Source: Methylobacter sp. | Lineage (GTDB): Bacteria > Pseudomonadota > Gammaproteobacteria > Methylococcales > Methylomonadaceae | NCBI GenBank assembly: GCA_004299305.1 | Contig: SCPZ01000102.1 | Location: 1 to 34,644, forward strand | Length of the DNA: 34,644 bases | Direction of reading: 5' to 3' | Shown: one piece after another, positions 3,190 to 34,526 of the stretch | Layout of the letters: each line of letters opens with the position of its first letter | Position numbering within the stretch: the stretch's first letter is position 1 | The notes under the pieces: generated by a model | What the model saw: only the letters and a program-made list of their open reading frames with translations | What the model was told of the DNA's origin: nothing | Databases searched by the model: none | Made by a program: the position numbers and the translations under genes

Positions 3190-5673
3190 CTACTTGAAAT
3201 TTATCTGTGCTTCGATAGGATTGGTTTGGCGCCGGTTTTCTACCACAGCCCGTACCTTTCGTTCAAACTCTTCTACGGGTAGGGGATGGCTCAGGTAATA
3301 GCCTTGCACATTTTCACAGCCGAGTTGCACAAGCTGATCAAGTTGCTCTTCAGTTTCAACGCCTTCGGCCAGCACTTGAATGCTCAATGTCTGTCCCAAC
3401 TGGATAATCGCCTGAACAATGGCCTTATTTTCCTGTTGCCCTTGGGATAGGTTGTTGACAAATGACTGATCGATTTTGAACCTGTCTATCGTAAACCGGT
3501 TGATGTAACTCAAAGAGGAATAGCCTGCGCCAAAGTCGTCGATGGCAAAGGTCACGCCTAGTTTTTTGAGCTCTATCATCACTTTCACAATGGCTTCTGT
3601 ATCTACCATCAACGACGTTTCAGTGAGTTCCAGTTCCAGATAATGGGGATCGAGGCCGGATAACGCGAGGGCTGAGCGTACCGATTTCAACATATTGCCC
3701 TGCTTGAATTGTAGCGCAGACACGTTGACGTTGACGGTTAACTTTAATCCCGCGTCATGCCACTTACGATTCTGTCGGCAAGCCTCGTATAACACCCAAT
3801 CGCCTATCGGCACGATCAGGCCGATATCCTCCGCTACCGGAATGAATGTGGCTGGAGGCACCTGTTCACCGATAGCTTTTGTCCATCGCAGCAAGGCCTC
3901 CGCTCCGACCAATTGACGCTCCTTAATGGAATATTGCGGCTGGTAATATAGGCTTAATTCACCTTTTTCGAGCGCTTGGCGCAGGCTATTTTCCATGTTT
4001 ATGCGCTCGGCCGAGATGATGTTCATGTCGTTGGAAAAGAAACGGAAGGTATTGCGGCCCTGTTTTTTGGCTGCATACATCGCGGTATCCGCTTTATTGA
4101 GCAATTCTTCGAAATTCTCGCTGTCTTCCGGGTAAATGCTGATGCCGATGCTGAATGAGGTAATGATTGGTATGCCCTCTACATTAAAGGGTTCATTGAG
4201 TTGCAAAAGGATTTTTTGGGCGATTTGTACCGCAGTATCGTTATCCTTTAAGTCGGTCAACACGATGATAAATTCATCCCCGCCTTGGCGGCAGATAATA
4301 TCGACTTCGCGTAAACAGTTGACCAAGCGGATTGCGATTTCCTGCAATAGGTGGTCGCCGACATCATGCCCCAAGGTATCGTTGATCTGTTTGAAACGGT
4401 CGAGATCGAGAAAAAGCAATGCCAGTAATGCGTTATTGCGAGCCGCGTGTGCAACAGCCTGTTCAAAGCGATCTCTCAGCAGGGTGCGGTTGGGCAGGTT
4501 GGTCAACGCATCGTGGTGCGCCATGTATTCAATCTTGGCCTCAATTTCCTTGCGTTCGGTGATATCGGAAAACACCGCGCTGTAATGGGTTAACCGGCCT
4601 TGTGCATCGCATACGGTCGAGATACCGAACAATGCCGGGAATAATTCACCGTTCTTGCGCCGGTTCCATACTTCGCCTTGCCAATAGCCCTTTTCATGGA
4701 GTGTCTGTTTCATGCGCTCATAAAATGCTGCATCGTGGCGATCCGATGTGAGTAAGCTGGGATTCCTGCCGATCACCTCGTTGGGAAGATAGCCGGTGAT
4801 ATGGGTAAAGGACTGGTTAACATCAACAATTTTATTAGCCGCATCGCACAGTATGATGCTTTCCCCACTGTTCTCAAATACCTTCGCCAGTAACTTTAGG
4901 CGCTCTTCAGTCTGTTTTAAGTAATCAATGTCCGTATGCATGCCCAGCATCCGCAAAGGCGCACCTTCCAAATCGCGTTCGACGATGTTGCCGACCGACA
5001 AAATCCATTTCCATGACCCGTCCGCGCAGGCCTGCCGAAATTCAGCCCGGTATTCCGGCAGCTTTCCTGCTAAGTAGGCTTGATAGGTATTTTCTATGGT
5101 TTCCCTGTCATCGGGATGCATTCGTTCCAACCGGGCGGCATTGGTTTCCTCAAATGCTTCAGGGGCATAGCCCAGCATAGTAGCGTACTCATCATTGACG
5201 ATGGTTCGCCCTGTCTTGATGTCGAGGTCGTAAAAACCCTGGCGAGCGGCGAGCATCGACAAGCGCAGGCGCTCTTCTTTAATCCGCAATTCGTTGGTTA
5301 AGCGATGGGAGCGTATGACGAAGCGCAGACGATGCACCAGCAAGGGCCAGATGATGGGCTTGTGGATGAAATCCGACGCACCCATCGCAAAAATGCGCTC
5401 GATTGAGGCGCTGTCTTCCACCCCGGTGAGCATGACGACCGGTATCGTCGTGCAGCAACCCGGCAGCCGCTCAAGCAAAGCCTCAAAGCAAGCGAAGCCG
5501 TCCATATCGGGCATGATGATGTCGAGCAGCACCAGATCAGGGGGATTCTCAACCGCCAAGGCGACACCGGTCAGGGCATTTTCCGCCTCAATGACTTCGA
5601 AACCATGAGGGGACAGCATTCTCTGAATTAACAGCCGGGTCACCGCATCATCGTCAATTACCAATATTTTCAT
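3190..5673 (-). CDS. Response regulator REC-PAS-PAS-GGDEF-EAL
   Basis: Cytoplasmic response regulator for cyclic di-GMP turnover. Domains in order: REC (1-120, phospho-acceptor Asp51 in LLDIIMPDMDGF, acidic IDDD near the start), two PAS domains with PAC ends (about 130-250 and 260-375), GGDEF (380-540) and EAL (550-810). The GGDEF signature is intact at 464-468, with an RxxD inhibitory site (Arg455, Asp458) at the expected five-residue spacing. The EAL motif (592-594, EALLRW) and DDFGAGYSS are also intact. It could therefore both make and degrade c-di-GMP; which dominates is not visible. The start ATG overlaps the previous gene's stop and has a GGAAGG ribosome site. It is the last gene of the receptor-YfiR-kinase operon, so the hybrid kinase is its likely phosphodonor. 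Confidence 0.93.
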   Translation of the reverse strand: MKILVIDDDAVTRLLIQRMLSPHGFEVIEAENALTGVALAVENPPDLVLLDIIMPDMDGFACFEALLERLPGCCTTIPVVMLTGVEDSASIERIFAMGASDFIHKPIIWPLLVHRLRFVIRSHRLTNELRIKEERLRLSMLAARQGFYDLDIKTGRTIVNDEYATMLGYAPEAFEETNAARLERMHPDDRETIENTYQAYLAGKLPEYRAEFRQACADGSWKWILSVGNIVERDLEGAPLRMLGMHTDIDYLKQTEERLKLLAKVFENSGESIILCDAANKIVDVNQSFTHITGYLPNEVIGRNPSLLTSDRHDAAFYERMKQTLHEKGYWQGEVWNRRKNGELFPALFGISTVCDAQGRLTHYSAVFSDITERKEIEAKIEYMAHHDALTNLPNRTLLRDRFEQAVAHAARNNALLALLFLDLDRFKQINDTLGHDVGDHLLQEIAIRLVNCLREVDIICRQGGDEFIIVLTDLKDNDTAVQIAQKILLQLNEPFNVEGIPIITSFSIGISIYPEDSENFEELLNKADTAMYAAKKQGRNTFRFFSNDMNIISAERINMENSLRQALEKGELSLYYQPQYSIKERQLVGAEALLRWTKAIGEQVPPATFIPVAEDIGLIVPIGDWVLYEACRQNRKWHDAGLKLTVNVNVSALQFKQGNMLKSVRSALALSGLDPHYLELELTETSLMVDTEAIVKVMIELKKLGVTFAIDDFGAGYSSLSYINRFTIDRFKIDQSFVNNLSQGQQENKAIVQAIIQLGQTLSIQVLAEGVETEEQLDQLVQLGCENVQGYYLSHPLPVEEFERKVRAVVENRRQTNPIEAQINFK

Positions 5674-7811
5674 GTCACACCTTCCTGATTATTTATGTCC
5701 TTGAACATAAATTGACTGAACTGCTCCGGCGCTAGCGGCCTGCTGAAGAAGTATCCTTGTACGGTATCACAGTCATGCTGTCTGAGAAAGTCAAGCTGCT
5801 GCTGGTTTTCCACGCCTTCCGCGACGACTTCCAGTGACAAGCTTTTAGCCAAGGCGATGATGGCCGAGGTAATCATATTGTCATCTTCGTCGTGAGGAAT
5901 ATCGCGCACAAACGATTGGTCGATTTTTAGTTCCGAAATGGGCAATTTTTTTAAATACGACAGTGAGGAATAGCCCGTGCCGAAATCGTCAATGCTGATT
6001 CTTATACCCAGCGTCCGAATCTCTTGTAGGATGGCCATAGCCTCATGAACCCCCATCATTAAAGTGCTCTCCGTTAGCTCCAGTTTGAGGTAAGGCGAGG
6101 CCAGTCCGGTGCTGTCCAATACCTCGCGGATATGCAGTAAAAAATCCTTGTGGCGGAATTGAACAGCGGAAACATTCACCGCCACGGTGAGCGGCGGCAT
6201 ACCCGCCAACTGCCAAGTACGCAATTGGCGACAGGCAGTGTCTAGAACCCAAGCGCCGATTGGGACAATCAGCCCGGATTCTTCTGCGATAGGAATGAAC
6301 TGGTCGGGAGGCACTAAACCGAGCTCCGGGTGCTGCCAGCGCACCAGCGCTTCCATGCCTATGGTTTTATTGCTTTGTAAATTAACCTTGGGTTGATAGT
6401 GCAGTACCAGCTCATTGCGCTCGATTGCATGACGCAATCGATTTTCCAGCGATAGTTTGTGAAAGGCCGCAATATGGAGGTCTTTGCTAAAAAACCGGTG
6501 GGAATTTTGTCCCTGTTCGCGTGCATGGTTCATCGCGAACTCTCCGTTCTTGATGAAGGTATCTACATCTTCCCCATCTTCGGGATAGACGGCGATACCG
6601 ATATTCGCCACTAAGTGGATTTCGTTGCCCTCTACTTCAAAGGCGGACTCCATCTCCTTGAAAATGCGTTTGACTACTTTGATGCTGTCGCGGGTATCTC
6701 GAATGGAATTGAGCATGACGATGAACTCGCTGTCGCCCAGCCGGGAAACGGTTGTTGCCGGTTTTTCCAAATTCCTGGTAACGGCTATATAGTCGCTGTT
6801 TCGGACCGCATGAGCCAGGCGTTCTGTAAACAGTTGCAGAACGCGATCCCCAACGGTTGCGCCCAGTGTTTCGTTGATACGCTTGAAACGGTCGATGCCG
6901 ACAAAAAGACCCGCCAAACAAAGCCCATTGCGGGCGCAATGGCCGATAGACTGATTAAAAATAGTCTTGAACAGGGTGCGGTTAGGCAAACTGGTCAATG
7001 GATCGTAGTAGGAAAGATGATGCACTTGATCTTCGATCCGGCGACGTTCGGTAATATCCTGCACCGTGCCGTGTATCTTTTCGACGCGTTCTTGCTGCAT
7101 CTCGGCTTCCCCTTGGATATGCGCGACATGCACCGTTTTATCGGCATGTACTAGGCGTATTTCCAAGGAAAATGCATGGCCTTGTTTCATGCACAGTTCC
7201 AACGCCTGTTGCAGGCGCTGGAGATTGGCTGGATGAACGGTCTTGAACAGCGAGAGGCGAGGGCTATAAGAATATTTCGGGGCAAGGTCCAGCACCTTCA
7301 ATGCTTCTTCCGACCAAGTTATGTAGTCGGTACAGCGCTCCCAATCCCAGTTGCCCAAATGGGCGATTTTTTGGGCATTGCGTAATACGGCTTCGTTATG
7401 ATCCAGCTCTTTCAATGCCCCGCTGGCGCGTATCATGTAGTTCAGGCGGTAGGGCAGCGTCGGCCAGTTAATCGGTTTGGCAATGAAATCCGTCGCTCCC
7501 AGGCCGAAACAACGATGAATGGATTTCACGTCGTCGATCCCGGTCAGCATTACGATGGGCAACAAGCGGGTTTCGGGTATGGCACGCAACGATTCAAGGC
7601 AGGTAAAGCCATCCATGTCAGGCATCATCACATCAAGCAGAATCAGGTTGGGATGGTGCTCAAGAAACATGTCCAGACCTGTTTGAGCATCGGTTGCAGT
7701 CAATACGTCAAAACCTTCGCATGACAGAATCTCCTTTAGCATGAGGCAGGTCATGTCATCGTCGTCAATCGTCAAAATCAATGGACGTGATCCTTGCCGG
7801 GCGATGCTCAT
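5670..7811 (-). CDS. Response regulator REC-PAS-degenerate GGDEF-EAL (likely phosphodiesterase)
   Basis: Domains: REC (about 10-130, Asp60 in [12 protein letters not shown]), PAS (135-255, ending DITERRRIE), GGDEF-like (265-430) and EAL (440-700). The GGDEF signature has become GDSEF (359-363, RLGDSEF), and a short insertion ([12 protein letters not shown]) precedes it, so cyclase activity is unlikely. The EAL residues are kept (EALVRW at 487-492, DDFGTGYSS), which suggests a c-di-GMP phosphodiesterase whose dead GGDEF may sense GTP, as in other composite proteins. It starts inside the 3' end of the hybrid kinase gene (4-base ATGA overlap, GAGG upstream) and its stop overlaps the start of the second regulator. 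The paired regulators differ mainly in the state of the GGDEF site, so one kinase may drive opposing outputs. Confidence 0.93.
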
Positions 7812-10666
7812 ATTGACCTCATTTCTTGTTGTAAGGATTGTTCCGCTTTATGGTAAGCCTGTTCCAGTATAGCCAAGTTTTCTGCATCGGTGCCGGGCAA
7901 TCCGTCCCGTGCTGCGTGTTCCAAGGCGCAGGCGAGTTCTGAAAGCCGCATCGCCCCCACATTGGCTGAGGCAGACTTGATGCTGTGGGCTGCATAGCGT
8001 ACCGCTTCCATATCGCTTGCCAGGATGCCGGTTTTTATTTTTTCAAGCTGCGCCGGCGTGTTGGTAAAAAACAGCTGCAACACTTTCTGCACGAGGCTTG
8101 GCCCGCCCATGTTGCGCAACATCGTCAAAGGCTCCGGGTTTACCGAGCTAGCGTTTTCAGGCGGCCGATGGTTAATGCTCGATGCTCCGCTAAGCCGCTT
8201 GAGTGTCTCGTGCAGTATTTCTATCTGGAAAGGCTTGGACAGGTAGTCATCCATACCGGTAGCCAGACAGTGATCGTGGTCACCCTCAAGCGCGTTAGCG
8301 GTCAGGGCAATAATGGGTATGTGTTTTCGCCCAAGTCTTGTTTCTTCCTCCCGGATACGTCTCGTGCTCTCGTAGCCATCCATATCCGGCATCATGCAGT
8401 CCATCAAAATCAGGTCCATGCCGCCCTGCCGCCAGAGTTCCAGAGCCTCCAGGCCGTTATTGGCCACAACAACCGTACAGCCGAGCTTGTCCAGCACCGC
8501 ACGCCCCACCTCCTGGTTCACTGAATTATCTTCCGCTAGCAGGATATGCAGGCCCAGTGGCGTTTCCGGGGCGCTGTCGGTTGCAAATAGGTTCAGTAGG
8601 GCATCATGCAGCATTTTTTTGTGTAGGGGTTTAGACAGATACACATCACAAGCGCTTTCGTGTATACCGTTCTGTCCGCCCTCAGATGCATTGGACGTCA
8701 ACATGACTAAGCGCATCGCATCAAAACGCCGATCGGCCCGGATGTGGCGGGTTAACTCTGCGTCAGACATAGCCAGGTCTATCAATATTGCATCAAACAG
8801 CTGTCCTATTTGTACGCTCTGTTCCAGAAGCTCCAATGCACAGACATCGTTCTCAGCCACGCGCGGTATCATGCCGAGTTCGAGGGCATACTTCTTAACA
8901 ATGAGAGCGTTGCCGGGATTGCCGTCAACGATCAGCACCCGTTTACCGTGCAGTTCGGAAGGCTCCACAGGCAACGGGACTGGCGCCAGTGCCGGTTGTG
9001 AGCATATTTTTAGGCGAAATTCCGAACCTGAACCCGGCGTACTGCTTACCTCGATTCCCCCCCCCATCAACAAAGCCAGATCCTTGCTGATGATGAGCCC
9101 CAAACCTGTGCCACCATATTTGCGTGTGGTTGAGCCGTCCGCCTGGCTGAAGGGTTTGAACAATTGAGGCAGTATTTCCGGCGCTATTCCAATACCGGTA
9201 TCGCGTATGGCAAAACATAAAGCAAGTCCCTGTTGACAGGCATTATTATCCTGGTCGAGGCGGATCAGCAGTTGAACGCTGCCCGTATCGGTAAATTTGA
9301 TTGCATTGGAGAGCAGGTTGGTCAAAATCTGCCGCAAGCGATACGGATCACCCCGTATCTCCAACGGAACACTGTCATCTATTTGGTAGTCCAGGGCAAT
9401 GCCTTTGCCGTGAGCTCGTTCCATAAACAGTGAAGTGGTTTGTTCCACCAGGCTTTCCAAATGAAAATCTAGCATTTCCAGTTCCATCTTACCCGCCTCA
9501 ATCTTGGAAAAATCGAGGATGTCGTTGATGATGGCAAGCAATGAGTCCGCAGAGCGATACACAATATCGGTATATTTCTGCTGCAAGGGTTTGAGTTCCG
9601 TTCCCAGCAGCAGTTCGGTCATGCCCAGCACGCCATTCATCGGGGTACGAATTTCATGACTCATGTTGGCTAAAAATTGCGACTTGGCTTTATTGGCGGC
9701 TTCGGCTTGTTCTTTTGCGCTGAGCGCATCCTGGATAGCCGCTTCAAGACTTTTGTTTTTCTCCGATAATTCCTGGGTTCGATCAAGCACCTGTTGTTCC
9801 AGATGCGCCCGATGTTGCTCCAATTGTTCGTTACGCTGCTGAATTTCGCACAGCATGGTGTTGTAAACGGTCGCCATTTCACCAAATTCATCGGCGCTTA
9901 TTTGGGTGATTCGGCGGGTAAAATTTTTCTCATGGATCACCGTCCGCATGGCCTGCATAAGGTCCAGCAGCGGCGCTAAAAAAAACTGCTGCAATTTGGT
10001 GGCGATAACGACAATGGATAGGCCGGTAAAAATAACAACCAGGCTAATAATTAAATAAAACCGGTGGAGTAATGCATGGAGTCCGCTTTGATCGTCGGCC
10101 AAATGCAAAATGCCTTGCAGTTCGCCCTCCAGGAAAATGGGTTGGAATAGATGCAGGACATCGTGTTCGTCATAAGTGATAACTTGTCTGTAAAGCGGCA
10201 ACGGCGTATTTTCAGCGTCTGGTTTGACTAGTTGTCCGTACCAAGCGGCGAATTGTGTACGCAGGAATTGGATAGGATCATGCGCCGGTGTGCTGTTTTG
10301 TGGGACAGTGATCAGCGTTTTGATGGCTTGGTAAGTCCAGTTTGTTATCGATTTCCTGGGCGATTGGTAAGCCGCAAAAATAGCGCCGTTATTGTTATAC
10401 ACATCGGCAGAGAGTAGGTTGGGCTGGCTCTTCATACCGTTCAGCATTTCCTGGGCGCTGTTAATGTCATTAAAAGCCAACGATACCGAACTGTTCCAGG
10501 CGATAAAATCCGCGATTAATATCAGTTGTTTTTCGGTATCGTCCTTTTTGGTGTGGTATTCGTTGATGACAACGGCAGTAGTTTCCAGAAGCAAGGCCAG
10601 CATGGCTGTTAAAGTCATGATGGAGATTAATTTGACACGTATCGGAGTGTTATTAAACCATTTCAT
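7808..10666 (-). CDS. CHASE8-type hybrid histidine kinase with REC-REC-HPt
   Basis: Inner-membrane sensor kinase, BarA-like in its cytoplasmic half. A first membrane helix (about 13-33) precedes a periplasmic segment (35-200) whose start ([20 protein letters not shown]) resembles the CHASE8 sensor of YfiN. A second helix (about 203-223), HAMP (225-280) and a coiled coil follow. HisKA carries His337 in [11 protein letters not shown]. HATPase shows N, G1 and G2 boxes ([22 protein letters not shown]). REC1 (575-695) keeps Asp630 but its acidic pocket is VDGN, so it is probably impaired. REC2 (706-825) is complete with Asp756. HPt has His894 ([13 protein letters not shown]). It follows yfiR directly and overlaps the next regulator, so phosphate probably flows to the two REC-GGDEF-EAL proteins. 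The CHASE8 call is from sequence resemblance. Confidence 0.93.
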
Positions 10667-10675
10667 AGTCGCTTC

Positions 10676-11215
10676 TTAATTACCGATAATTTTGGCAAGT
10701 TTTAATAATCTTGCGCTGATATTCAAATTCGATTCGCGCACCACAGGCAGGTTTATATGCAAGGTGATTTTGCCATCCCTATTTTCCATGCCGACCATGC
10801 CGCCTTGCACGGCAAAGTCATAGCTTTCGCCAATAGTCAGCAGCGGGCGTTTTTTTATTTCGACAAATAATTGCAGCAAAATAGCTTGTTTTAAGTCACT
10901 GACATACAGTACATGACATTGTTCAAAATTGCGCAAGCGCGATAGATTGATAACCTGTAGCGTTTTATTGCCTACGGTTTTATGGTCAATGTCGGCAAAG
11001 GATTGTTGCACTACGTTATCGCCAACTACACATAAATCGATGGTGTCTTTCATCTGCGCTTCCGTCGGCCAAGTGGTGAGACGCACAATATTCAGCGCCA
11101 GGGCCGATAATACCGTCTGTTCCTCCAGCGACTGGGCAAACAGGGGCGAATGCGTGTCAACCAATAAAGTCAGGCCCAGAAACAGCAGCAGAAATTTTTT
11201 GATTCGTTTGCTCAT
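10676..11215 (-). CDS. YfiR-family periplasmic protein (DUF4154)
   Basis: Protein of 179 aa with an N-terminal signal peptide (LLLFLGLTLLVDTHSPLFAQ) and a YfiR/DUF4154 domain. Diagnostic pieces are VLSALALNIVRLTTWP near the start, the central HVLYVS, LTIGESYDFAVQGGMVGM, and the terminal ISARLLKLAKIIG. In Pseudomonas, YfiR is a periplasmic repressor that binds the periplasmic domain of the diguanylate cyclase YfiN. Here it sits three bases after a TonB receptor gene and nine bases before a kinase with a CHASE8-like domain, so it may repress that kinase and respond to the receptor. The partner is inferred; the family is clear. Confidence 0.92.
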   Translation of the reverse strand: MSKRIKKFLLLFLGLTLLVDTHSPLFAQSLEEQTVLSALALNIVRLTTWPTEAQMKDTIDLCVVGDNVVQQSFADIDHKTVGNKTLQVINLSRLRNFEQCHVLYVSDLKQAILLQLFVEIKKRPLLTIGESYDFAVQGGMVGMENRDGKITLHINLPVVRESNLNISARLLKLAKIIGN

Positions 11216-11218
11216 GAA

Positions 11219-13228
11219 TCAGAAATTCCAGCTTATTTTTCCATACACACCTCGGTCGATGGCGGTCGGTAAGGTTTGAATTTCCCCTATATATTCCAGA
11301 TGTTGTTGTTCAAGCAGGTTTTGGCCAACCAGCGATAATTCAATACCTTGATAAGGGCGCCAGGCCGCGCGCAGATCGAGTGTGGAATAGCCTTTGATGA
11401 CAGTATCGCCCGATGTGACCACTGCAAGATTGGAGTCCACATAACGGAACCAGAAATCCAGGTCAATATCCCGCGAGAGCGAGACTGAACCGCGTAATGA
11501 AACCCGCTGTTCGGGGCTGATGCCGGTCCGTAGATTGCTTAGGTCCTTCAATTGGGTATGCAACCAGCTGTAATTGAGATCCCAGCGCCACCAGTCCAGC
11601 ATTTGCCAGACGGTGGCGATTTCGACGCCGTAGGTTTCACCCTGTAGGTTGTTGGTAAATTCATAAGGCAAGATCCGTGTTGCACCATTAAAGGACGGCG
11701 TGCCTTGGAGCGGGTAGCGTAGGTCACGGTAATCATTGTAAAACCCGGTTAGGTCCAAAGAAACCGATTTGATAAGGGTCGTTCTATAACCCGCTTCGTA
11801 GCTTATGACTTCTTCGGATCGATAATCGGGATTGCCTTGGACCATTAATATAACAGGCTGGGTTGGCGAAGGAATAACCCGGGACAGAAAGTTGTAATTT
11901 TGTTCTAACCTTGACGGCGTTCGAACCGCCCTGGAAACGCCGGCCCATAGTCGGTGTTGATTGTATGGCGCCCACATGATCCGTGCCGACGGTTGGCCCT
12001 CGAAGCCGCTATAGTCGTTGTGTTCAAACTTGGAACCGATCGTCAACCAGAGTTTATTGTCGATCAGGGTTAATTCATCCTGGATAAAACTACTGACCAA
12101 TTGGTCACTGACACTGTCCGGGTTTATAGTGAAATTTATTGAACCGTTTTGGAGCCGGTTACCTACTATGTGGTCATGACCAAAGCGGTAGCCCAGTCCC
12201 CAAATGATTTCCTGCCTATCCAGCAACGCGAAACGGTGTTGGAAATCCAAATCCAGGGTATCGCGGCTATCGTCATACGTGCCTTCACTACGCGTGTAGC
12301 TATCGTAATAAAGTTGCAGCGAATAATCCGATGATGGTGAAAAAGTATGCTGAAAACGGCTCAGCAGATTGCCGCCATAGCTGTCGTTGCCCTCTTTTTG
12401 GGTGACCTGGAAACCGGGTGCAATTTGCGGATAAATGGAAGACTGATTAATAGCGGTTTTATAAATATCGCCCTGAAATGTCAGCGCATCCTGGAGGTTT
12501 AATTGCGAGTCCAGACGGAACCCGCCTTGCACCTTGTTCCAGTCATCCCCGGCTTTACCGCCTGACATATGGGTGTTTTCACCACGATTGAAGCCTTTGA
12601 TGTAGGCTCTTGCCGTGGTGTCTTTGCCGAATTTTGCGCCATAGCGGAATGAGCCAAAGTCCTGCTCCCGGTTGCCGCCGCCGGCATTCAGTAAAGCGCC
12701 TTGAGTCTGGGATGAAGGTTTGGTGATGATGTTGATAACGCCATTGACTGCATTAGCGCCCCATAACGCAGCGCCTGGGCCACGGATGACTTCAATGCGA
12801 TCGATGTCTTCCATCATCACATCCTGGTTTTCCCAATACACGCCGGCAAAAGAGCGGGTATAGGCGCTACGTCCGTCGATAAGGACCAGTAATTTATTGG
12901 CAAAGCGACCGTTAAAACCCCGTGAACTGACAGCCCATTTATTGGCGTCTATCCTGGCTACATCAAGGCCGGGGGCCAAGCGCAAGGCATCGGGAATACT
13001 GGTGGCGCCGGAGCGTTTTATGTCTTCATTGCTAATGACAAACGCCGCCGCCGGGGCGTCATTCAGGGATTGAGCCTTTTTGGCGACGGACGTGACTTCG
13101 ACATTGAGCAAGTCTTCTACGCTCAGATTGAGCGCTTCGTTTTGTTCTTCGGCGCCGATGACCATGGGGCTGAAACATAAAATAGTCGCTGATAGGTAAT
13201 AGCTAATGGTTATTTTGTTATTAATCAT
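11219..13228 (-). CDS. TonB-dependent outer-membrane receptor
   Basis: Outer-membrane receptor of 669 aa from the chosen start. The plug follows a signal peptide (MINNKITISYYL...FSPMVIGA) and the N-terminal NLSVEDLLNVEVTSVAKKAQ string, then IPDALRLAPGLDV, SSRGFNGRFANKLLVLIDGR, IEVIRGPGAALWGANAVNGVINI and a beta-barrel ending in a terminal aromatic residue (KISWNF). I choose the ATG at 13228 because the signal peptide starts there; the open frame back to 13324 reads through a G-rich leader. The substrate is not evident; cobalamin genes nearby are suggestive only. It is the first gene of the intact receptor-YfiR-kinase operon, and its stop is separated by 3 bases from the YfiR start, so the receptor is likely a signal input rather than only a transporter. 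Confidence 0.92.
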   Translation of the reverse strand: MINNKITISYYLSATILCFSPMVIGAEEQNEALNLSVEDLLNVEVTSVAKKAQSLNDAPAAAFVISNEDIKRSGATSIPDALRLAPGLDVARIDANKWAVSSRGFNGRFANKLLVLIDGRSAYTRSFAGVYWENQDVMMEDIDRIEVIRGPGAALWGANAVNGVINIITKPSSQTQGALLNAGGGNREQDFGSFRYGAKFGKDTTARAYIKGFNRGENTHMSGGKAGDDWNKVQGGFRLDSQLNLQDALTFQGDIYKTAINQSSIYPQIAPGFQVTQKEGNDSYGGNLLSRFQHTFSPSSDYSLQLYYDSYTRSEGTYDDSRDTLDLDFQHRFALLDRQEIIWGLGYRFGHDHIVGNRLQNGSINFTINPDSVSDQLVSSFIQDELTLIDNKLWLTIGSKFEHNDYSGFEGQPSARIMWAPYNQHRLWAGVSRAVRTPSRLEQNYNFLSRVIPSPTQPVILMVQGNPDYRSEEVISYEAGYRTTLIKSVSLDLTGFYNDYRDLRYPLQGTPSFNGATRILPYEFTNNLQGETYGVEIATVWQMLDWWRWDLNYSWLHTQLKDLSNLRTGISPEQRVSLRGSVSLSRDIDLDFWFRYVDSNLAVVTSGDTVIKGYSTLDLRAAWRPYQGIELSLVGQNLLEQQHLEYIGEIQTLPTAIDRGVYGKISWNF

Positions 13229-13622
13229 TATGAGTTTACCTAGATGTAAGTTCCGCATTGATGACAGGTCGAACTCCGGGTTTAGGTATTCACCTCCGTT
13301 GAAAAAGGGGAGGGTAAAGCGCAATAGTGTTAGTTTAAGTCATTCGCTGGGCTTGGCCTGGGGGCGATGTTGATGGGTGAAGCCCAGTTGCTGAATCACT
13401 AAAAAAACGAGCGAACCATGGACGACAGGTTTTGTTGATATATTGAAAGCAATTAACTACAAATTGTAGATTAACACTGTAGGATTTCTTCAATCAATAA
13501 GTATTATTACCCAGGTGTCCTCTGCTATTGAGCTGTCGGCCTTATGTCAAAGGCGTTTCCGGGTAAGTGTTCAATGGGTGTCGAAGAGTACAATGCTGGT
13601 AACTTGTTTGGGCTACCAACTA

Positions 13623-13750: not shown

Positions 13751-13812
13751 CAGACCCCGACCGTATATTTAGACCTTCCAGGTTTTAAAAACCTGGAAGG
13801 TCTTGGCGTAAC
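13751..13812 (+). repeat. Palindromic repeat (GACCTTCCAGG family), copy 1
   Basis: The element begins CAGACCCCGACCGTAT and contains GACCTTCCAGGTTTT facing AAAACCTGGAAGGTC, then TTGGCGTAAC. A nearly identical element in the same orientation is at 18586-18645; core-only copies lie at 25481-25513 and 25682-25714. This copy is about 10 bases from the stop of the truncated sensor gene. Confidence 0.88.
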
Positions 13813-13820
13813 GTAACTAC

Positions 13821-14048
13821 TCACCCTAAGGTCGATTGGCTGTCGTTAAACAGCAGCGCAGCGGCGGCATTAAAACCGATCATGTTACCGCTTGCCTCGA
13901 CATCGGCCAGTATTTGACCGTGTTCCCTCCAGATTTCGGTGATGCTGCTGATCAGCAAGGTAAACACCAGCGCCAAGCCGACTGTAATCGCTTGCAAACG
14001 GCGAAGTTTGCTGGTTATAGGTATATTGGCGAAGTTTTGTTGTTTCAT
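13821..14048 (-). pseudogene. Truncated CHASE8-type sensor, N-terminus only
   Basis: A 75-aa reading frame: a short cytoplasmic N-terminus (MKQQNFANIPITSKLRRLQ), one membrane helix (ITVGLALVFTLLISSIT) and the start of a periplasmic domain (ASGNMIGFNAAAALLFNDSQST). It then ends abruptly with Leu-Gly-stop, where the sequence enters repeat-type DNA (GTGAGTAGTTACG). The string FNAAAALLFNDSQS matches the beginning of CHASE8 domains such as [17 protein letters not shown] in the intact kinase of this window. A complete protein would continue with the second helix and a kinase or GGDEF output; none is present downstream. I read it as the remnant of a sensor gene paralogous to 7808-10666. A functional 75-aa membrane peptide cannot be excluded. 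Confidence 0.75.
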
Positions 14049-14075: not shown

Positions 14076-14615
14076 TTATTTTGCGACATTGACACGCCTA
14101 GCCAATTTAAGCAGTTGGGCGCTAATATGCACGCCGTTAGCGTTTGCCGCAGCAAGATTAATTTCAAAACTGAGGCGGTTATCGCCTTGTATCAAGCCTA
14201 TCGTACCGCCTTGATCGATGAAGCCCGGTTCGTCGCTAACCGTCACTATCGGCAAATTTTTTAAATAACGGATAATTCTTGTCGTATTTTCGGAAGAATC
14301 GATGAAAACCATGTGACAGTTTTTTAGGCCTTCACCTGTGGTATTACGCTCGATAAGCATCGGTTTGCTGTTGACGGTTTTGCTTTCCAGTACCGATAGG
14401 CTATCGCCTAACTGATCGTTATTTGTCGTACACAAGCGGTAGGCGTCCTGGTTGGCGGCAGCTTTTGGCCATTCAATAAACTTAAAGAAATTGTATAGAA
14501 AAGCCGTTTTTACCGCCGCTTCGCTGCCGGATTCAGCGTATGCCTGGCCGGTAATCGCGCCTGCCAGCAGCAGGGCAAGCAGCAGTCGGCTGAAGTAGCA
14601 TAAGTATCTACACAA
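14076..14615 (-). CDS. YfiR-family periplasmic protein, second copy
   Basis: YfiR/DUF4154 domain with a signal peptide (LLLALLLAGAITGQAYA), then VKTAFLYNFFKFIEWP, MVFIDSSENT, VTVSDEPGFIDQGGTIGLI and VHISAQLLKLARRV. The open frame extends to an ATG at 14870, but the extra 85 residues are repeat-encoded (PSPVGEGWGEE, PPHPNLLPQG) and do not resemble the family. I choose the TTG at 14613-14615: AAGGAG lies seven bases upstream and the product is 179 aa, the same as the first YfiR. That ribosome site belongs to the inserted element (14624-14717). It lies between a receptor gene and a truncated sensor, the same order as the intact cassette. The start is uncertain. Confidence 0.85.
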   Translation of the reverse strand: MCRYLCYFSRLLLALLLAGAITGQAYAESGSEAAVKTAFLYNFFKFIEWPKAAANQDAYRLCTTNNDQLGDSLSVLESKTVNSKPMLIERNTTGEGLKNCHMVFIDSSENTTRIIRYLKNLPIVTVSDEPGFIDQGGTIGLIQGDNRLSFEINLAAANANGVHISAQLLKLARRVNVAK

Positions 14616-14623
14616 GTACCTGC

Positions 14624-14717
14624 TCCTTCTCCCTTGAGGGAGAAGGTTGGGATGAGGGGGATATAAATGCTTGTTTTTATTCTCCTCTCCCCAACCCTCT
14701 CCAACAGGAGAGGGAGC
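14624..14717. repeat. Inverted repeat inserted at the yfiR-2 start
   Basis: The arms read CTCCTTCTCCCTTGAGGGAG and, after an AT-rich centre, the complementary CTCTCCCCAACCCTCTCC followed by AGGAGAGGGAG. Translated, this family gives PSPVGEGWGEE and PHPNLLPQG. The same family is found inside nifE at 31216-31380. Here it lies between a receptor gene and the mature YfiR domain. Confidence 0.85.
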
Positions 14718-14876
14718 TAGGTCAACTTGCAACCTATTGTATTTATAATACAAAAAAGTTGTGTGGATAGTTATGGGGCTGGGGTGAGGAGAATAAAATG
14801 CATAAGTTATTTCATGCACATTCCCTAGCCAACTTGGCTGGAGACGGATTTGCGCTTTGTTTGCAGTCATAGCCGG

Positions 14877-16877
14877 TTAAAACGTGACTTGCAATTTTAG
14901 GCGAAACTCCCGCCCGTTCATCGGCAGGATATTCTGTGTTATATCGGCAGGTCCTGTGCCGCCCAGCATTTGAGCGCGAGTGTCGAACAGGTCGTAAACG
15001 CCGAACGATACCACTAGGCCGCGCATGATGCGATCGGAGCTGAGATTCAGGTTGACCAGGTCATAGGCATCCGCTGTGCCGCCTTGCAGGGCTTTGCGTT
15101 CGCCGATGTAGATGTTTTCTACACCCAGTTTGGCGAAGTTGTTAAATAGTGGCTCAGCGTAATGTAATTTGAAGATATTCTGTGGCGAGGCATGGGCCCA
15201 GATATTGCTTTCATGTACGTCAGTCAGGCGGCTGTAGGTGTGGGAGGCCTTAAAGAAGCGTCCGCTATCCCAGCGTTGTTCCGCTTCAAATTCAACGCCA
15301 ATCGCATGATAGTGGTGGCCGATGTTCATAAACGGCCCGTAGGCGCCATAATCCGGATCGCAGTATTGTTCCAAGAGCTGGGAAATGTCGTTGTAAAAAA
15401 AGTCGCCGATTAATTTCAGGCCGGTTGTTGAATGCCATTCGACGATGCTTTCGTAGCTCTTGATCCGCTCTTCGTTGTTGTTGGGATTGGCGGTGTTGCT
15501 GCCGCTGTAGTTGTAGTCTCGTTCCCAGACATTGGGCGCGCGGAAGGTCGAGGCGTACAGCAGTTTAAAGCTGGCAGACTCCAAAGGATTCCAGATCAAG
15601 CCCAGGCGCGGGTTGAGTTGCAGGTTTTTCAGCATGTGGTGGTAATCCAGCCTCATGCCGACGCTGAAGATGACATCGTCAAGAACCTGTATGTCATCTT
15701 GCGCATAGAGCTCGACGCGGTGGCCGCTACGATTGCTGTCTTGATAGACTGCGTAGGGATTAATGTCGTAATTGAACATCCGTTGACGCCAGTCATACTG
15801 ATATTCCAGGCCAAGCATCAAGCGGTGTTTATCAAAAAACGTGCTGGTCAGTTGTGCATCTCCGCCCCACCAACGGCCGCTAGCCATGTCGTGATTGAGA
15901 ACCCGACCGTTATTGTCATAGGCTTGGTCGGCGGAGTATTCGTAACCCTGGGAAAAGCCTTTTAACTGAAGCGAGGTTTTATCGGTCAACGCTTTGTTGT
16001 ATTTAAGGTTGCCGAAAAATTGCCGGTCGACGGTGTAAAAATCCGGGTCGTTGAAAATCCCTTCAAAAGACGCTGTCGGCACCCGTTTGAAACGGTCGAC
16101 AAAACCACCCATCAGGGTAAATTCTTCAAACTGGATCCGCCCAAACAAACGGTCTGCGCGTTCAGCATCCATGTTGTGGGCTATGCCGTTGTTGGTAGAG
16201 GGCTTGTCGAATTCCGGGAAATACAGGTTTGTAACGCCGTCGCTGTCGTAATGAGATGCTGAAAACAGAATATCGGCGCCGTTAGCTAGTTTTTTGCCGT
16301 AACTGGCCCGGCCTTTGTAAGTGTCGAAGCTGCCGACTTCGCCGGCCAGTTGGGCGCCATTGACGGCTTTGCCGGTTTTGGTGACGATGTTGATTAAACC
16401 CGAAAAGGCATTGGCGCCGTAAATCGACGAACCCGAACCGGGCATAAATTCGATGCGCTCGACCAAATCCATGTCCAGCATAAATTCCTGCGCCATGTAG
16501 CCGCCGTCGAAGATGTTTTCATTCATGCGCTGGCCGTCGATCATGAACAGTACGCGGGAGTTATAGTCGTTAGGATGGATGAAACCGCGCACGCCAAGAT
16601 AGCTGTAGTTGCGATCATTGGCGGTAAACAGCCCGCGCATCGCATTGAGCGCCTCAGACAGGGTGCGCCAGCCAAAGGTTCGAATATCGGCGGCAGTTAA
16701 CACCGACACGGAAGAGGGCGCCCGGCTGGTTTTTTGTCCCAAGCGTGACGCACTGATTACATCGACATTAAGCAACTGTTCGATAGAAAGATTGGTTAAA
16801 TCCTCAGCATTGAAATTGTCGGCCTCGACTTGACTGCTCAGGGCTATCAGAATGACAGTAACGATTAAACTGCGCAT
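14877..16877 (-). CDS. TonB-dependent outer-membrane receptor, second copy
   Basis: Outer-membrane receptor of 666 aa. A signal peptide (VTVILIALSSQVEA) precedes NLSIEQLLNVDVISASRLGQ, plug motifs (LSEALNAMRGLF, YLGVRGF, RVLFMIDGQRMN, RIEFMPGSGSSIYGANAFSGLINI) and a barrel ending RLKLQVTF. The start has CAGGACA immediately upstream. It shares domain order and the N-terminal LSxExLLNVxV string with the other receptor but differs strongly elsewhere, so the two probably recognise different ligands. Downstream comes a YfiR gene (7 bases after the stop, apart from the inserted repeat) and a truncated sensor, so its signalling partner appears lost. It may still transport its ligand, or act through the other cassette's kinase. 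Confidence 0.92.
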   Translation of the reverse strand: MRSLIVTVILIALSSQVEADNFNAEDLTNLSIEQLLNVDVISASRLGQKTSRAPSSVSVLTAADIRTFGWRTLSEALNAMRGLFTANDRNYSYLGVRGFIHPNDYNSRVLFMIDGQRMNENIFDGGYMAQEFMLDMDLVERIEFMPGSGSSIYGANAFSGLINIVTKTGKAVNGAQLAGEVGSFDTYKGRASYGKKLANGADILFSASHYDSDGVTNLYFPEFDKPSTNNGIAHNMDAERADRLFGRIQFEEFTLMGGFVDRFKRVPTASFEGIFNDPDFYTVDRQFFGNLKYNKALTDKTSLQLKGFSQGYEYSADQAYDNNGRVLNHDMASGRWWGGDAQLTSTFFDKHRLMLGLEYQYDWRQRMFNYDINPYAVYQDSNRSGHRVELYAQDDIQVLDDVIFSVGMRLDYHHMLKNLQLNPRLGLIWNPLESASFKLLYASTFRAPNVWERDYNYSGSNTANPNNNEERIKSYESIVEWHSTTGLKLIGDFFYNDISQLLEQYCDPDYGAYGPFMNIGHHYHAIGVEFEAEQRWDSGRFFKASHTYSRLTDVHESNIWAHASPQNIFKLHYAEPLFNNFAKLGVENIYIGERKALQGGTADAYDLVNLNLSSDRIMRGLVVSFGVYDLFDTRAQMLGGTGPADITQNILPMNGREFRLKLQVTF

Positions 16878-17121: not shown

Positions 17122-18360
17122 TTATTTGTTATTCATCAGCCACACGCCATCCCAGGCGCCGAGAGATTGCGCGTTATGACATTGCTTGGCATAAGCGCGG
17201 CATACCGGATCGTCAGGCGCGGTGTTGAACAGCGCTTCGGCTTCGATCCAATGGCCTGCGTAACATAAAGCCAACGCTTTGCGGTATGTAGTCAGGTCTG
17301 GAGGGCTCGCATCGGCGATTTGATTTTGCAGCTCGAATACCTTTACCGGGGTGGTGCGTCCAGTTACTTTTAGCATACCAATTTCCCGCCCGATAAAGTT
17401 AACGGCGCCGCCCGCTTGCTGCCATGTCGCTTCCGAGACCAGGATTGCCGTATCAAATAATTTGTTGGCGTTTTCCAAGCGCGACGCCAAATTGGCCGCA
17501 TCGCCCAGGATGGAGTAATCGAAGCGCACCTTGCTGCCCATATTGCCCACCACCACTTCGCCGGTATGCAGGCCTATCCGGGCTTTCAACTTACCGCCCG
17601 CCCGGGATGTGAAGTCTTCGCCCCGTTCCGTCAAGCGTTGCTGACACCGCAAGGCGGCCCGGCAAGCGCAGGCGGCATGGTCGGGTTGATCCAATGGTGC
17701 GTTCCAGAAGGCGACTATGCCGTCTCCTTGATATTTGTCCAGGGTGCCGCCTTCATCCAGGATGATATTGCTCATATCGGTCAAATAATCGTTGAGTAAG
17801 GCGGTGAGCGGCTCCGGTTCCATACGCTCGGCCAATTGAGAGAAGCCTTCCAAATCGGAAAAAAAGATGCTGAGCGTTTTACGCTCCCCGCCCAATTGCA
17901 GGCGCGTAGGGTCGGCCATGATTTGCTCAACGACTTTGCTGCTTACATATTGGCTCAACGCTGTGGTGACTAATTGTTTTTGCTTGGACAAGTCCTGGCT
18001 TTCCAAGGCGCGTATTACGGTCAAGCGCAACATTTCAGGTTCCCACGGTTTTGAAATGTATTTGTAGATTTGCGCTTCGTTGATGCAGCGCACCAGTGAT
18101 TCCGTGTCTGCATAACCGGTAAGTAAAATACGAATAGCCTGCGGCTGTTGTTCCAATGCATGTTTAAGCACTTGGTCGCCACTGATGTTGGGCATACGTT
18201 GATCGCAGATAATCAAATCAACCGCTTGTTCGTTGATGATCTTTATGGCTTCGCTTCCCGATGTGGCCTTTAAGATGCGATAACCTTTACGGAATGAACG
18301 ATATAGGCTGTCAACGATGTCAACTTCATCGTCAACAAAAAGCAGGGTATGGATGTCCAT
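17122..18360 (-). CDS. Response regulator with class III nucleotidyl cyclase domain
   Basis: A 412-aa protein: REC domain (1-120, Asp53 in IICDQRMPNISG, with VDDE at 9-12), a linker, then a class III cyclase catalytic domain (about 158-345) and a short alpha-helical tail. Both metal-binding aspartates are present (Asp169 in FFSDLEGF, Asp213 in DKYQGDG), as are the transition-state Asn and Arg in GDAANLASRLE. Lys209 before the second Asp fits ATP as substrate, so cAMP is the likely product. I start at the ATG at 18360, where the REC domain begins; the open frame continues to a TTG at 18414 that lies within a repeat. It precedes the second receptor cassette on the same strand, separated by 240 bases with a palindrome, so co-transcription is uncertain. 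Confidence 0.9.
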   Translation of the reverse strand: MDIHTLLFVDDEVDIVDSLYRSFRKGYRILKATSGSEAIKIINEQAVDLIICDQRMPNISGDQVLKHALEQQPQAIRILLTGYADTESLVRCINEAQIYKYISKPWEPEMLRLTVIRALESQDLSKQKQLVTTALSQYVSSKVVEQIMADPTRLQLGGERKTLSIFFSDLEGFSQLAERMEPEPLTALLNDYLTDMSNIILDEGGTLDKYQGDGIVAFWNAPLDQPDHAACACRAALRCQQRLTERGEDFTSRAGGKLKARIGLHTGEVVVGNMGSKVRFDYSILGDAANLASRLENANKLFDTAILVSEATWQQAGGAVNFIGREIGMLKVTGRTTPVKVFELQNQIADASPPDLTTYRKALALCYAGHWIEAEALFNTAPDDPVCRAYAKQCHNAQSLGAWDGVWLMNNK

Positions 18361-18402
18361 GGCTATAAAATGTCTACTTTTTGTTAGGGGCTTGGGAAAA
18401 CC

Positions 18403-18438
18403 TAAAACTCGCAAATGAAAATAATTGGGGGCGAGTAG
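18403..18438 (+). repeat. 36-bp repeat upstream of the REC-cyclase, copy 1
   Basis: TAAAACTCGCAAATGAAAAT followed by AATTGGGGGCGAGTAG is identical to 20428-20463. Its ends form a small stem (CTCGC/GCGAG). It lies where the promoter of the cyclase gene would be expected. Confidence 0.85.
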
Positions 18439-18585: not shown

Positions 18586-18645
18586 CAGACCCCGACCGTA
18601 TTTAGACCTTCCAGGTTTTAAAAACCTGGAAGGTCTTGGCGTAAC
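18586..18645 (+). repeat. Palindromic repeat (GACCTTCCAGG family), copy 2
   Basis: Matches 13751-13812 in the same orientation except for a two-base AT difference (CCGTATTTAG against CCGTATATTTAG). With the first copy it bounds a 4.8-kb segment holding the REC-cyclase and the broken receptor cassette. The surrounding gene-free stretch 18361-18914 also carries a 29-base repeat at 18841-18869 (CACGGAAATGTTAGGGACGG and onward) found again at 20137-20165. Confidence 0.85.
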
Positions 18646-25480: not shown

Positions 25481-25513
25481 AGACCTTCCAGGTTTTTAAA
25501 ACCTGGAAGGTCT
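25481..25513. repeat. GACCTTCCAGG palindrome, core-only copy 3
   Basis: AGACCTTCCAGG-TTTTTAAAA-CCTGGAAGGTCT, the core of the 13751-13812 and 18586-18645 elements without their flanks. It lies just upstream of the NifA site, in the 540-base gap 25218-25757 that otherwise holds only promoter elements and palindromes. Confidence 0.85.
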
Positions 25514-25681: not shown

Positions 25682-25714
25682 AGACCTTCCAGGTTTTAGA
25701 AACCTGGAAGGTCT
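25682..25714. repeat. GACCTTCCAGG palindrome, core-only copy 4
   Basis: AGACCTTCCAGGTTTTAGAA then ACCTGGAAGGTCT. It lies 44 bases after the last gene of the nifE operon and could serve as its transcript-end hairpin, though no U-run follows on the minus strand. Confidence 0.85.
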
Positions 25715-33173: not shown

Positions 33174-34526
33174 ATGAAATTGCCGCTTTCTCCGCCTTGT
33201 TTAGAAATACTTCTTCCGAAAGCCGATAGTAATACATTTTTCAGGCTGCTCAATTCGAACTTAGGAGCGACCGATGTAGAAGGTCGTTATTTGCACTGGG
33301 ATAAATTAAGGCATTTACAGCCGCCGGAAGGTTGGTCATCGGAATATTATTGGGCGGCATTAAAACTCACCAGAAGAAAGCTGTATAAAAAATTGCCTTT
33401 CACCAGCAAATCCGGCGCACAATTCCAGTTTTGCATGACCGATAGCATCTACAGGGACTTGCATTGGATCGACCAAAATGCCGCCGGTCGTATCGGCATG
33501 GATAAGCCCGTCACCAATCCGCATACCCGCGACACCTATCTGGTTGGCTCATTAATTGAAGAAGCCATCAGTTCCAGCCAGTTGGAAGGCGCGTCAACAA
33601 CCCGAAATGTGGCAAAAGAAATGCTCAGGCAGGGCAGAAAGCCTAAAGATCATAGCGAACAAATGATCTTTAATAACTATCATGCAATGCAATTCATTCG
33701 GGAATATAAAGAGGAAAAATTAACGACGGCGATGATTTTACAACTGCACTGTGTTCTTACAGAAGCAACATTGGACGATGCAGACAAAGCGGGGCAATAC
33801 CGGGATAAGGGCGATGATATTCATGTGGTCAATGCATCTGGAACAGTTTCGTTGCATACACCGCCTGAAGCATCGGAACTTCCCGAAAGAGTCGAACGCC
33901 TTTGCCAGTTTGCTAATGACCTGGACGGTAAAGAGTTTATCCACCCGGTTATCAGGGCGATTATCCTGCATTTTATGGTCGGTTACGATCATCCGTTTGT
34001 CGACGGCAATGGTCGGACGGCGCGGGCTCTATTTTATTGGTCGATGGCGAATCAGCAATATTGGCTGATGGAGTTTATTTCCATTTCCCGAATCATCAAA
34101 CAAGCCCCGGCACAATACGGCAGAGCCTATTTGTACACCGAAACCGACGATAACGACCTGACCTATTTCATTATTCATCAACTGGAGGTGATCAAGAAAG
34201 CAATCGATGAGTTGCACGAATATCTTAAAAAAAAGGAGTTGGAACTGAATTCCATCGAAAAACGCTTGGATGGTTCGGTTCTGCAAGGCCAATTGAACCA
34301 CCGTCAGTTGGCTATATTGCGCCATGCACTGGATCATCCCAGTGCTATTTACAGTATTCAAGAACACCAGGCGGCGCATAGGATCAGCTATCAAACGGCC
34401 CGGACGGATTTATTAAAGCTCTCCGACCAATTCAAAATTCTCAGTAAACGTAAGTACGGAAATTTGTTTGTTTTTGTTGCGCCACCTGATCTCGGCCAAA
34501 CCTTAACCGATATTGAAAAAACTTAG
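33174..34526 (+). CDS. Fic-domain AMPylase with N-terminal inhibitory motif
   Basis: A 450-aa Fic protein. The catalytic motif HPFVDGNGRTAR starts at His273. An inhibitory helix motif (S/T)xxxE(G/N) is present as SSQLEG (134-139), the class II arrangement in which the helix lies N-terminal to the Fic core and its Glu138 blocks ATP. The N-terminal 100 residues match the Fic/DUF4172-like domain (YLHWDKLRHLQPPEGWSSEY then YWAALK). The C-terminal part (about 375-440: HRQLAILRHALDHPSAIYSI then QEHQAAHRISYQTARTDLLK) is a winged-helix-like segment. Fic enzymes attach AMP to Ser/Thr/Tyr of targets. It is the only confident plus-strand gene and stands alone; target unknown. Confidence 0.93.
   Translation: MKLPLSPPCLEILLPKADSNTFFRLLNSNLGATDVEGRYLHWDKLRHLQPPEGWSSEYYWAALKLTRRKLYKKLPFTSKSGAQFQFCMTDSIYRDLHWIDQNAAGRIGMDKPVTNPHTRDTYLVGSLIEEAISSSQLEGASTTRNVAKEMLRQGRKPKDHSEQMIFNNYHAMQFIREYKEEKLTTAMILQLHCVLTEATLDDADKAGQYRDKGDDIHVVNASGTVSLHTPPEASELPERVERLCQFANDLDGKEFIHPVIRAIILHFMVGYDHPFVDGNGRTARALFYWSMANQQYWLMEFISISRIIKQAPAQYGRAYLYTETDDNDLTYFIIHQLEVIKKAIDELHEYLKKKELELNSIEKRLDGSVLQGQLNHRQLAILRHALDHPSAIYSIQEHQAAHRISYQTARTDLLKLSDQFKILSKRKYGNLFVFVAPPDLGQTLTDIEKT

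Follow-up and report, generated by a model that had tools for sequence, protein, structure and literature searches.

A TonB-dependent receptor, a YfiR-like protein, and a CHASE8 sensor recur as a gene module that may relay signals across the envelope to cyclic di-GMP enzymes

A stretch of 34,644 nucleotides from Methylobacter sp. (GenBank assembly GCA_004299305.1, contig SCPZ01000102.1), referred to here at its full length as the window, carries at positions 3190 to 13228 five closely packed genes for a TonB-dependent receptor, a YfiR-like protein, a hybrid histidine kinase with a CHASE8 sensor domain, and two GGDEF-EAL proteins. The combination of TonB-dependent receptor, YfiR, and CHASE8 sensor is a recurring module, found in very different bacteria. 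We consider it fairly probable that it acts as a trans-envelope module, in which YfiR passes the state of the receptor on to a phosphorelay, which in turn sets cyclic di-GMP (c-di-GMP). The point of reference is YfiBNR, which is the TpbB/DgcN system of Pseudomonas and E. coli and the HmsCDE system of Yersinia. Malone et al. 2012 (PMC3375315) described YfiR and CHASE8 as a modular core, with histidine kinase outputs and mostly without YfiB in distant relatives, and left open the input of the many YfiR-YfiN pairs that have no YfiB. Systems of YfiR and CHASE8 with kinase outputs are already known; a TonB receptor as the candidate input was not seen in the literature searched.

All five genes lie on the minus strand. 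The receptor (receptor 1; 11219-13228) has a plug (PF07715, E 3.1e-21) and a barrel (PF00593, E 6.2e-32), and its open frame could start as far upstream as a TTG at 13324, the ATG at 13228 being the likelier start. It is followed by the periplasmic repressor-like YfiR/DUF4154 protein (10676-11215; PF13689, E 4.9e-37) and by the kinase (7808-10666), in which Pfam recognized CHASE8 (E 5.3e-13), HisKA, HATPase, two REC domains, and Hpt, and in which a hydropathy scan placed two transmembrane helices (16-34 and 203-221) on either side of CHASE8. The two output proteins, identified by Pfam and motif search, are a REC-PAS-GGDEF-EAL protein (5670-7811) and a REC-PAS-PAS-GGDEF-EAL protein (3190-5673), and a simple hydropathy scan found no transmembrane helices in either. 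The first-pass annotation of this DNA had proposed the same five genes in the same order, with overlaps or tiny gaps between them and a degenerate first GGDEF domain. The Pfam matches and coordinates agree with that order, the gaps are 3, 9, -4, and -4 bases, and the motif search read GDSEF at the GGDEF site of the first output protein, with an intact GGDEF in the second and EAL and DDFG motifs kept in both. A script found all of the phosphorelay residues, namely those of the kinase H-box, the canonical second receiver, the Hpt His, and both output receivers. The inventory of the locus stood for these five genes but had missed an adjoining upstream receptor-YfiR pair (14076-16877) and a sensor stub (13821-14048), which are described below.

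In the genome from which the window comes, all five DUF4154 genes adjoin a gene for a TonB plug, of which there are 19 in 4.49 Mb; the chance of this under random placement is about 2e-8. All four CHASE8 matches in that genome lie directly behind a DUF4154 match. DUF4154 was present in 112 of 151 genomes of the window's GTDB family, in 57 of 369 in a class sample, and in 94 of 398 in a phylum sample, the window's genome being counted each time. The neighborhoods counted were 80 from the family and 58 from the class; of these, 63 and 48, respectively, extended 3 kb or more upstream and 4 kb or more downstream. The family loci were hand-picked from the matches listed and were mostly best scoring and mostly one per genome, with three from the window's genome; the class loci were the best match per genome plus the second matches L197 and L198, and L202 and L203 stand outside the counts. 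Domain labels came from profiles built on the window's own proteins, with Pfam checks on 83 sensors and on 41 YfiR proteins, all 41 of which matched DUF4154. Simple gene calling had lost YfiR by overlap at L148, L152, L171, L189, and L193, and at these loci its position was taken from the known match.

The first-pass annotation had suggested a survey for YfiR beside TonB receptors, and its expectation was upheld from both directions. A receptor gene on the same strand, no more than 2 kb upstream or 5.2 kb downstream of YfiR, was seen at 61/63 family and 32/48 class loci. In a narrower frame, it lay directly upstream at 32/63 and 27/48 loci, or else downstream within 3.5 kb at 25 family and 4 class loci. 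Control genes in the same loci had a receptor directly upstream in only 13/460 and 4/232 cases, and random adjacency was rejected on this ground as the cause of the receptor-YfiR pairs. The CHASE8 sensor directly followed YfiR at 59/63 family and 37/48 class loci, and the sensors of L148 and L152 were missed solely through overlapping frames. Three gene orders were seen: receptor-YfiR-kinase, YfiR-CHASE8-GGDEF-EAL-receptor, and YfiR-receptor with a divergent kinase. For the view from the receptor side, a profile of 15 linked receptors was used, and among the best 80 of 574 confirmed stretches, 70 extended 2.5 kb or more beyond the receptor. YfiR was directly downstream in 52 of these 70, within 5 kb in 8, and not seen in 10; where there was room (n = 48), a sensor domain followed within 1.5 kb of YfiR in 41. 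Record titles at the YfiR-bearing receptor loci included Geomonas, Thiocystis, Shewanella, Nitrosomonas, Desulfogranum, and Desulfobacteraceae, together with metagenome-assembled genomes under the names Nitrospira, Acidobacteria, Verrucomicrobia, and Planctomycetaceae; assemblies of this kind were numerous among the hosts. Pairs of receptor and YfiR without any sensor, which the first-pass annotation had held would speak against its idea, are a minority, comprising the remaining 7 of those 48 loci and the class loci L159 and L201, where YfiR is followed by a receptor with no sensor behind. The best-matching partner locus was the same for YfiR and for receptor in 58 of 107 modules, compared with 1.6 when permuted.

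Among 83 aligned CHASE8 sensors (46 from the class, 36 from the family, and the window's), with a mean identity of 20%, the sole invariant column is Phe65 of the window kinase (codon 10472-10474, minus strand). These sensors had been preselected by our own CHASE8 profile, with the 95-residue fragment L199 excluded, and the N-termini of all 83 match Pfam CHASE8. Phe65 aligns with the Phe of EAAVVF in E. coli DgcN/YfiN, the window motif being otherwise altered (VSLAF), and a looser form of the motif occurs in 102/120 sensors compared with 2.3 in shuffles. On the basis of mutants, Malone et al. inferred AAVVF to be the surface at which YfiR binds YfiN (PMC3375315). The first-pass annotation had called the periplasmic domain of the kinase CHASE8-like, and both the Pfam match and the YfiN Phe agree, so the domain is not an unrelated one. 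Its further suggestion, that a kinase has taken the place of YfiN, is not a novelty, histidine kinase outputs having been listed already (PMC3375315).

The outputs vary across the 99 modules that have both a receptor and a CHASE8 sensor. In 33 the sensor is a CHASE8-GGDEF protein, in 7 the kinase and GGDEF-EAL domains form one protein, in 23 a REC-GGDEF/EAL gene follows the kinase, in 1 there is a GGDEF/EAL gene, and 8 are cut off by the end of a contig. The fused kinase-REC-GGDEF-EAL proteins support the view that GGDEF-EAL proteins receive phosphate from the kinase; one such module (L084) has a receptor 75.5% identical to that of the window, and another (L036) is located elsewhere in the window's own genome. 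A further type of fusion joins YfiR itself to a histidine kinase. In seven fetched proteins of this kind (L196, L197, L198, and L349-L352), four of which were chosen for long open frames, with candidate G816 left out, no CHASE8 was found, by Pfam in L196, L349, L350, and L352 and by our own profile only in L197, L198, and L351. In L196-L198, a long coiled-coil-like stretch and one transmembrane helix lie between YfiR and the kinase. A receptor is next door or one gene away in five of the seven: directly upstream on the same strand at L352, divergent at L350 and L351, next door on the other strand at L197, and one gene further at L196. None was found near L198 or L349.

Two variants of the locus were also seen. 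In L038 and about 25 related family loci, YfiR, a CHASE8-GGDEF-EAL protein, and a receptor make up one operon, which is a second conserved form; the genes upstream of L038 encode a methionine sulfoxide reductase (SelR) and an M18 aminopeptidase. In L056, L064, L075, and L078, a gene for about 360 residues lies between receptor and YfiR, and the one that was scanned, from L075, has CrtC-type lipocalin domains. Such a neighbor possibly hints at a lipid-like ligand.

Receptor 1 is closest, among named families, to NF053590 (TOL_0244), scoring 633.4 bits over the full profile, below the cut-off of 645. All 27 linked receptors that were scanned match NF053590 at an E value of 0.001 or better, the cut-off score having been compared only for the window's receptor. 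Neither receptor 1 nor receptor 2, its upstream counterpart in the window, has an STN domain (Pfam, E 0.001), and no sigma or anti-sigma families were found among the window proteins scanned with Pfam. Between the signal peptide and the plug of receptor 1 lie an LSxExL motif (13109-13126, minus strand), which is a candidate docking site for YfiR, and, directly before the plug, a TonB-box-like stretch, NVEVTSV (13085-13105, minus strand), conserved in at least 90% of aligned sequences at its V (15 receptors) and its T (27 receptors). LSxExL occurs in 98/108 YfiR-linked receptors (shuffles, 8.2) and in 42/54 receptor-anchored loci with YfiR (shuffles, 3.4), compared with 3/54 unlinked receptors from the same genomes or from related ones (shuffles, 1.7), these controls having been hand-picked, with three that lacked a plug match dropped. 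Its last Leu is invariant in the alignments of 15 and of 27 receptors, and seven further linked receptors all have the motif, three of them (L315, L317, and L318) repeating genes of the 108. E. coli YfiB has FTPEQV at its mature N-terminus, resembling the receptor motif, and S/T-x-x-E is also a general start of helices. A similar stretch, Leu35-Ser36-Ala37-Glu38-x-Ile40, stands at the mature N-terminus of P. aeruginosa YfiB (PMC4655355). We treat this likeness as a lead, because residues 34-43 are invisible in the YfiB(L43P)-YfiR complex (PMC4887326).

The YfiR of the window was modeled by AlphaFold2 with a pLDDT of 92.9, and its best PDB match is P. aeruginosa YfiR (4zhu, E 1.5e-8). The model also resembles substrate-binding proteins, one from Rhodothermus marinus (E 1.4e-5) and 3lft with L-Trp (E 3.8e-3). 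At positions 160, 162, and 183 the window YfiR has I, L, and L, and at pocket positions 166, 169, 176, 178, and 181 it has L, V, I, A, and L, all of them hydrophobic, with Leu for the central Phe162. In the open frames of 141 sources (the window, 80 family loci, and 60 class loci), a phmmer search with E. coli YfiB at E values up to 1 returned YfiB-like genes only at L067, L070, L101, and L170, none of them adjoining YfiR. The E. coli yfiR-dgcN-yfiB locus (L204) served as a positive control; it was recognized by the same profiles, and phmmer recovered its yfiB. The idea put forward in the first-pass annotation, that a receptor stands here in the place of YfiB, is supported by comparative genomics.

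Taken as a pathway, the module would begin with the outer membrane receptor sensing or transporting a ligand. YfiR would otherwise restrain the CHASE8 domain of the kinase through the conserved Phe65 surface, by analogy with YfiN, and the receptor would capture YfiR, probably through its periplasm-facing N-terminus. On capture, the activity of the kinase would change, phosphate would pass from H to D to H and reach the REC domain of each GGDEF-EAL protein, and c-di-GMP would change as a result. A broader proposal is possible, and we hold it tentatively: TonB receptors with a short N-terminal LSxExL helix ahead of the TonB box may be a class of outer membrane transducers that need neither STN domain nor sigma factor. 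Such receptors would pass on their signal by capturing YfiR directly, in the manner of YfiB, and might supply the missing input to Yfi systems without YfiB in several phyla, with kinases or cyclases as the outputs.

Several observations weigh against a relay from receptor through YfiR to kinase. In the class, 16 of the 48 YfiR loci had no same-strand receptor in the frame of 2 kb upstream and 5.2 kb downstream, and L182, L186, L188, and the fusions L197 and L198 had neither such a receptor nor a CHASE8 sensor. The receptor-anchored result is favored because the loci of that set were selected for their similarity to linked receptors, and the concordance of partners is inflated by shared ancestry. 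There is no c-di-GMP gene in the operon of 27 of the 99 modules with receptor and CHASE8 sensor. The sensor of L098, outside the aligned 83, has Tyr instead of Phe. The window YfiR retains the first cysteine pair (Cys71 and Cys110), with the second (Cys145 and Cys152) replaced in a phmmer alignment, and it has Leu and His in place of Phe162 and Glu163 of the P. aeruginosa protein (residues per PMC3375315 and PMC4887326). As for LSxExL, the pattern was devised after viewing linked receptors and was widened from a first pattern found in 72/108 linked and 1/14 unlinked receptors, and the short helix that AlphaFold2 places at the motif is of low confidence. The motif may be a marker of a clade, because unlinked receptors of the same clade carry it (8/10 of those without YfiR nearby) and linked receptors cluster on the tree; among 168 receptors most of the linked ones form a single large group, and of the 10 label changes on the tree, well-supported branches force no fewer than 7. 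Those 8/10 receptors led us to reject the motif alone as proof of YfiR docking.

The receptor might simply import a ligand, with YfiR itself the sensor that binds the imported molecule and thereby releases or engages the kinase, so that no contact between receptor and YfiR would be necessary. The resemblance of the YfiR model to substrate-binding proteins fits this, as does the binding of vitamin B6 and Trp by P. aeruginosa YfiR in the pocket that accepts Phe57 of YfiB (PMC4887326); the TonB-box-like stretch has been retained in the receptor, and the YfiR-kinase fusions near receptors fit equally. We nevertheless regard it as rather unlikely. The known small molecules bind very weakly, with mM affinity (PMC4887326), a freely diffusing ligand would not require each receptor to be tightly paired with a YfiR of its own, and the conserved N-terminal motif of the linked receptors would be left unexplained.

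Alternatively, the receptor could be an output, co-transcribed with YfiR and a kinase that sense envelope or redox state because it is needed in the same condition. In P. aeruginosa, YfiR without YfiB can serve as a redox-responsive device (PMC3375315), and the 16 class loci without a same-strand receptor point the same way. This is improbable in our judgment, since the receptor stays near YfiR in the 33 modules in which CHASE8-GGDEF(-EAL) replaces the kinase and near five of the seven YfiR-kinase fusions without CHASE8, since it is found on either side of the sensor gene, and since the window YfiR has lost one of its two cysteine pairs. Common history alone, with receptor and YfiR-sensor genes traveling together without working together, gains something from the abundance of TonB receptors in some genomes (up to 54 plug matches) and from the vertical descent that YfiR and receptor largely share. 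An association that spans several phyla by record title, several receptor clades, and three gene orders, and that lies well above the control genes, makes it very improbable.

The adjoining pair upstream, also on the minus strand, consists of receptor 2 (14877-16877; PF07715, E 1.8e-17, and PF00593, E 3.7e-28) and YfiR 2 (14076-14870; PF13689, E 2.5e-42, the domain match lying within 14097-14516). Behind YfiR 2 is a stub of 75 residues (13821-14048) recognized by its likeness to kinases of relatives; it is 79% identical over 72 amino acids to the kinase N-terminus behind a receptor-YfiR pair at L052, and 68% identical to that at L041. A tblastn search with the L041 kinase for the remainder of this gene recovered only kinase residues 1-81 there. 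On the strength of these alignments, the upstream pair is a second receptor-YfiR-sensor module with a truncated sensor, and the stub rules it out as a sensor-less counterexample. The two receptor-YfiR pairs may share the single kinase remaining in the window, a possibility that arises because the sensor of the second module has been reduced to a stub; Malone et al. mention two YfiR proteins with one hybrid kinase in Thauera (PMC3375315). The match of the stub stops beside one copy of a palindromic repeat with the core TCCAGG...CCTGGA AGGTCT, copies of which lie at 13771-13803, 18604-18636, 25481-25513, and 25682-25714. The true start of YfiR 2 is uncertain because the 5' part of its frame (14568-14870, minus strand) reads like an inserted repeat (PSPVGEGWGE...PHPNLLPQGRR). 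We presume that this stretch resembles common repeats. Directly upstream of receptor 2 is a gene for a REC protein with a class III adenylate/guanylate cyclase domain (17122-18414, minus strand), a possible extra output.

Cobalamin genes downstream had made receptor 1 a candidate B12 receptor, which was ruled out by a TIGR01779 score of 100 bits compared with 600. Scans for promoters and terminators yielded fewer sites than shuffled sequences did and were left out of account. An AMO/pmoA-family gene in the genome makes a methanotroph the most likely host. Elsewhere in the window, a Fic-domain protein is encoded at 33174-34526 (plus strand), near nifE/nifN and a gene for a nitrogenase cofactor protein.

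A TonB-dependent receptor, carried by two of every three YfiR loci in the class sample and by almost every one in the family sample, would be a testable answer to the question of the missing input. If the receptor does report through YfiR, TonB-dependent receptors would have a second route, beside STN and anti-sigma factors, for reporting to the cell, and uptake or sensing at the cell surface would be linked to c-di-GMP and phosphorelays. Among the papers listed in searches of the open literature, in which subscription papers are mostly uncovered, none was seen to name a TonB receptor as the partner of YfiR and CHASE8. The term TonB is absent from Malone et al. 2012 (PMC3375315), and a term search of a 2022 review of c-di-GMP sensing (PMC8846402) found neither TonB nor YfiR. 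The first-pass annotation knew of no described pathway with this set of genes, which, as far as those searches reach, stands for the receptor input but not for the rest, kinase outputs being published and the set being widespread across genomes. Caulobacter HmrABCX and the Pseudoalteromonas wrinkled variants are not the same system as the receptor-YfiR-CHASE8 module.

As in YfiBNR, the DUF4154 protein of the window is encoded beside an inner membrane CHASE8 protein that has the Phe of the YfiR-contact motif. The differences are that no OmpA-like lipoprotein YfiB was found nearby, a TonB-dependent receptor being there instead; that YfiN carries its own GGDEF domain, whereas the sensor of the window is a hybrid phosphorelay kinase accompanied by two REC-GGDEF-EAL proteins; and that the window YfiR has two of the four cysteines. 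The TonB-dependent receptor of the window would resemble the FecA and FpvA transducers in signaling from the outer membrane into the cell. Transducers of the FecA/FpvA type have an N-terminal STN domain and work with an anti-sigma factor and a sigma factor; in contrast, the receptors of the window are without a Pfam STN match, and their partner is YfiR with a CHASE8 kinase. The closest named family, to whose cut-off the window receptor comes just short, is that of the TOL_0244/OmpS receptors of alkane-degrading bacteria, and according to PMC6304351, OmpS is reported to sense alkanes and to set off a chemotaxis response.

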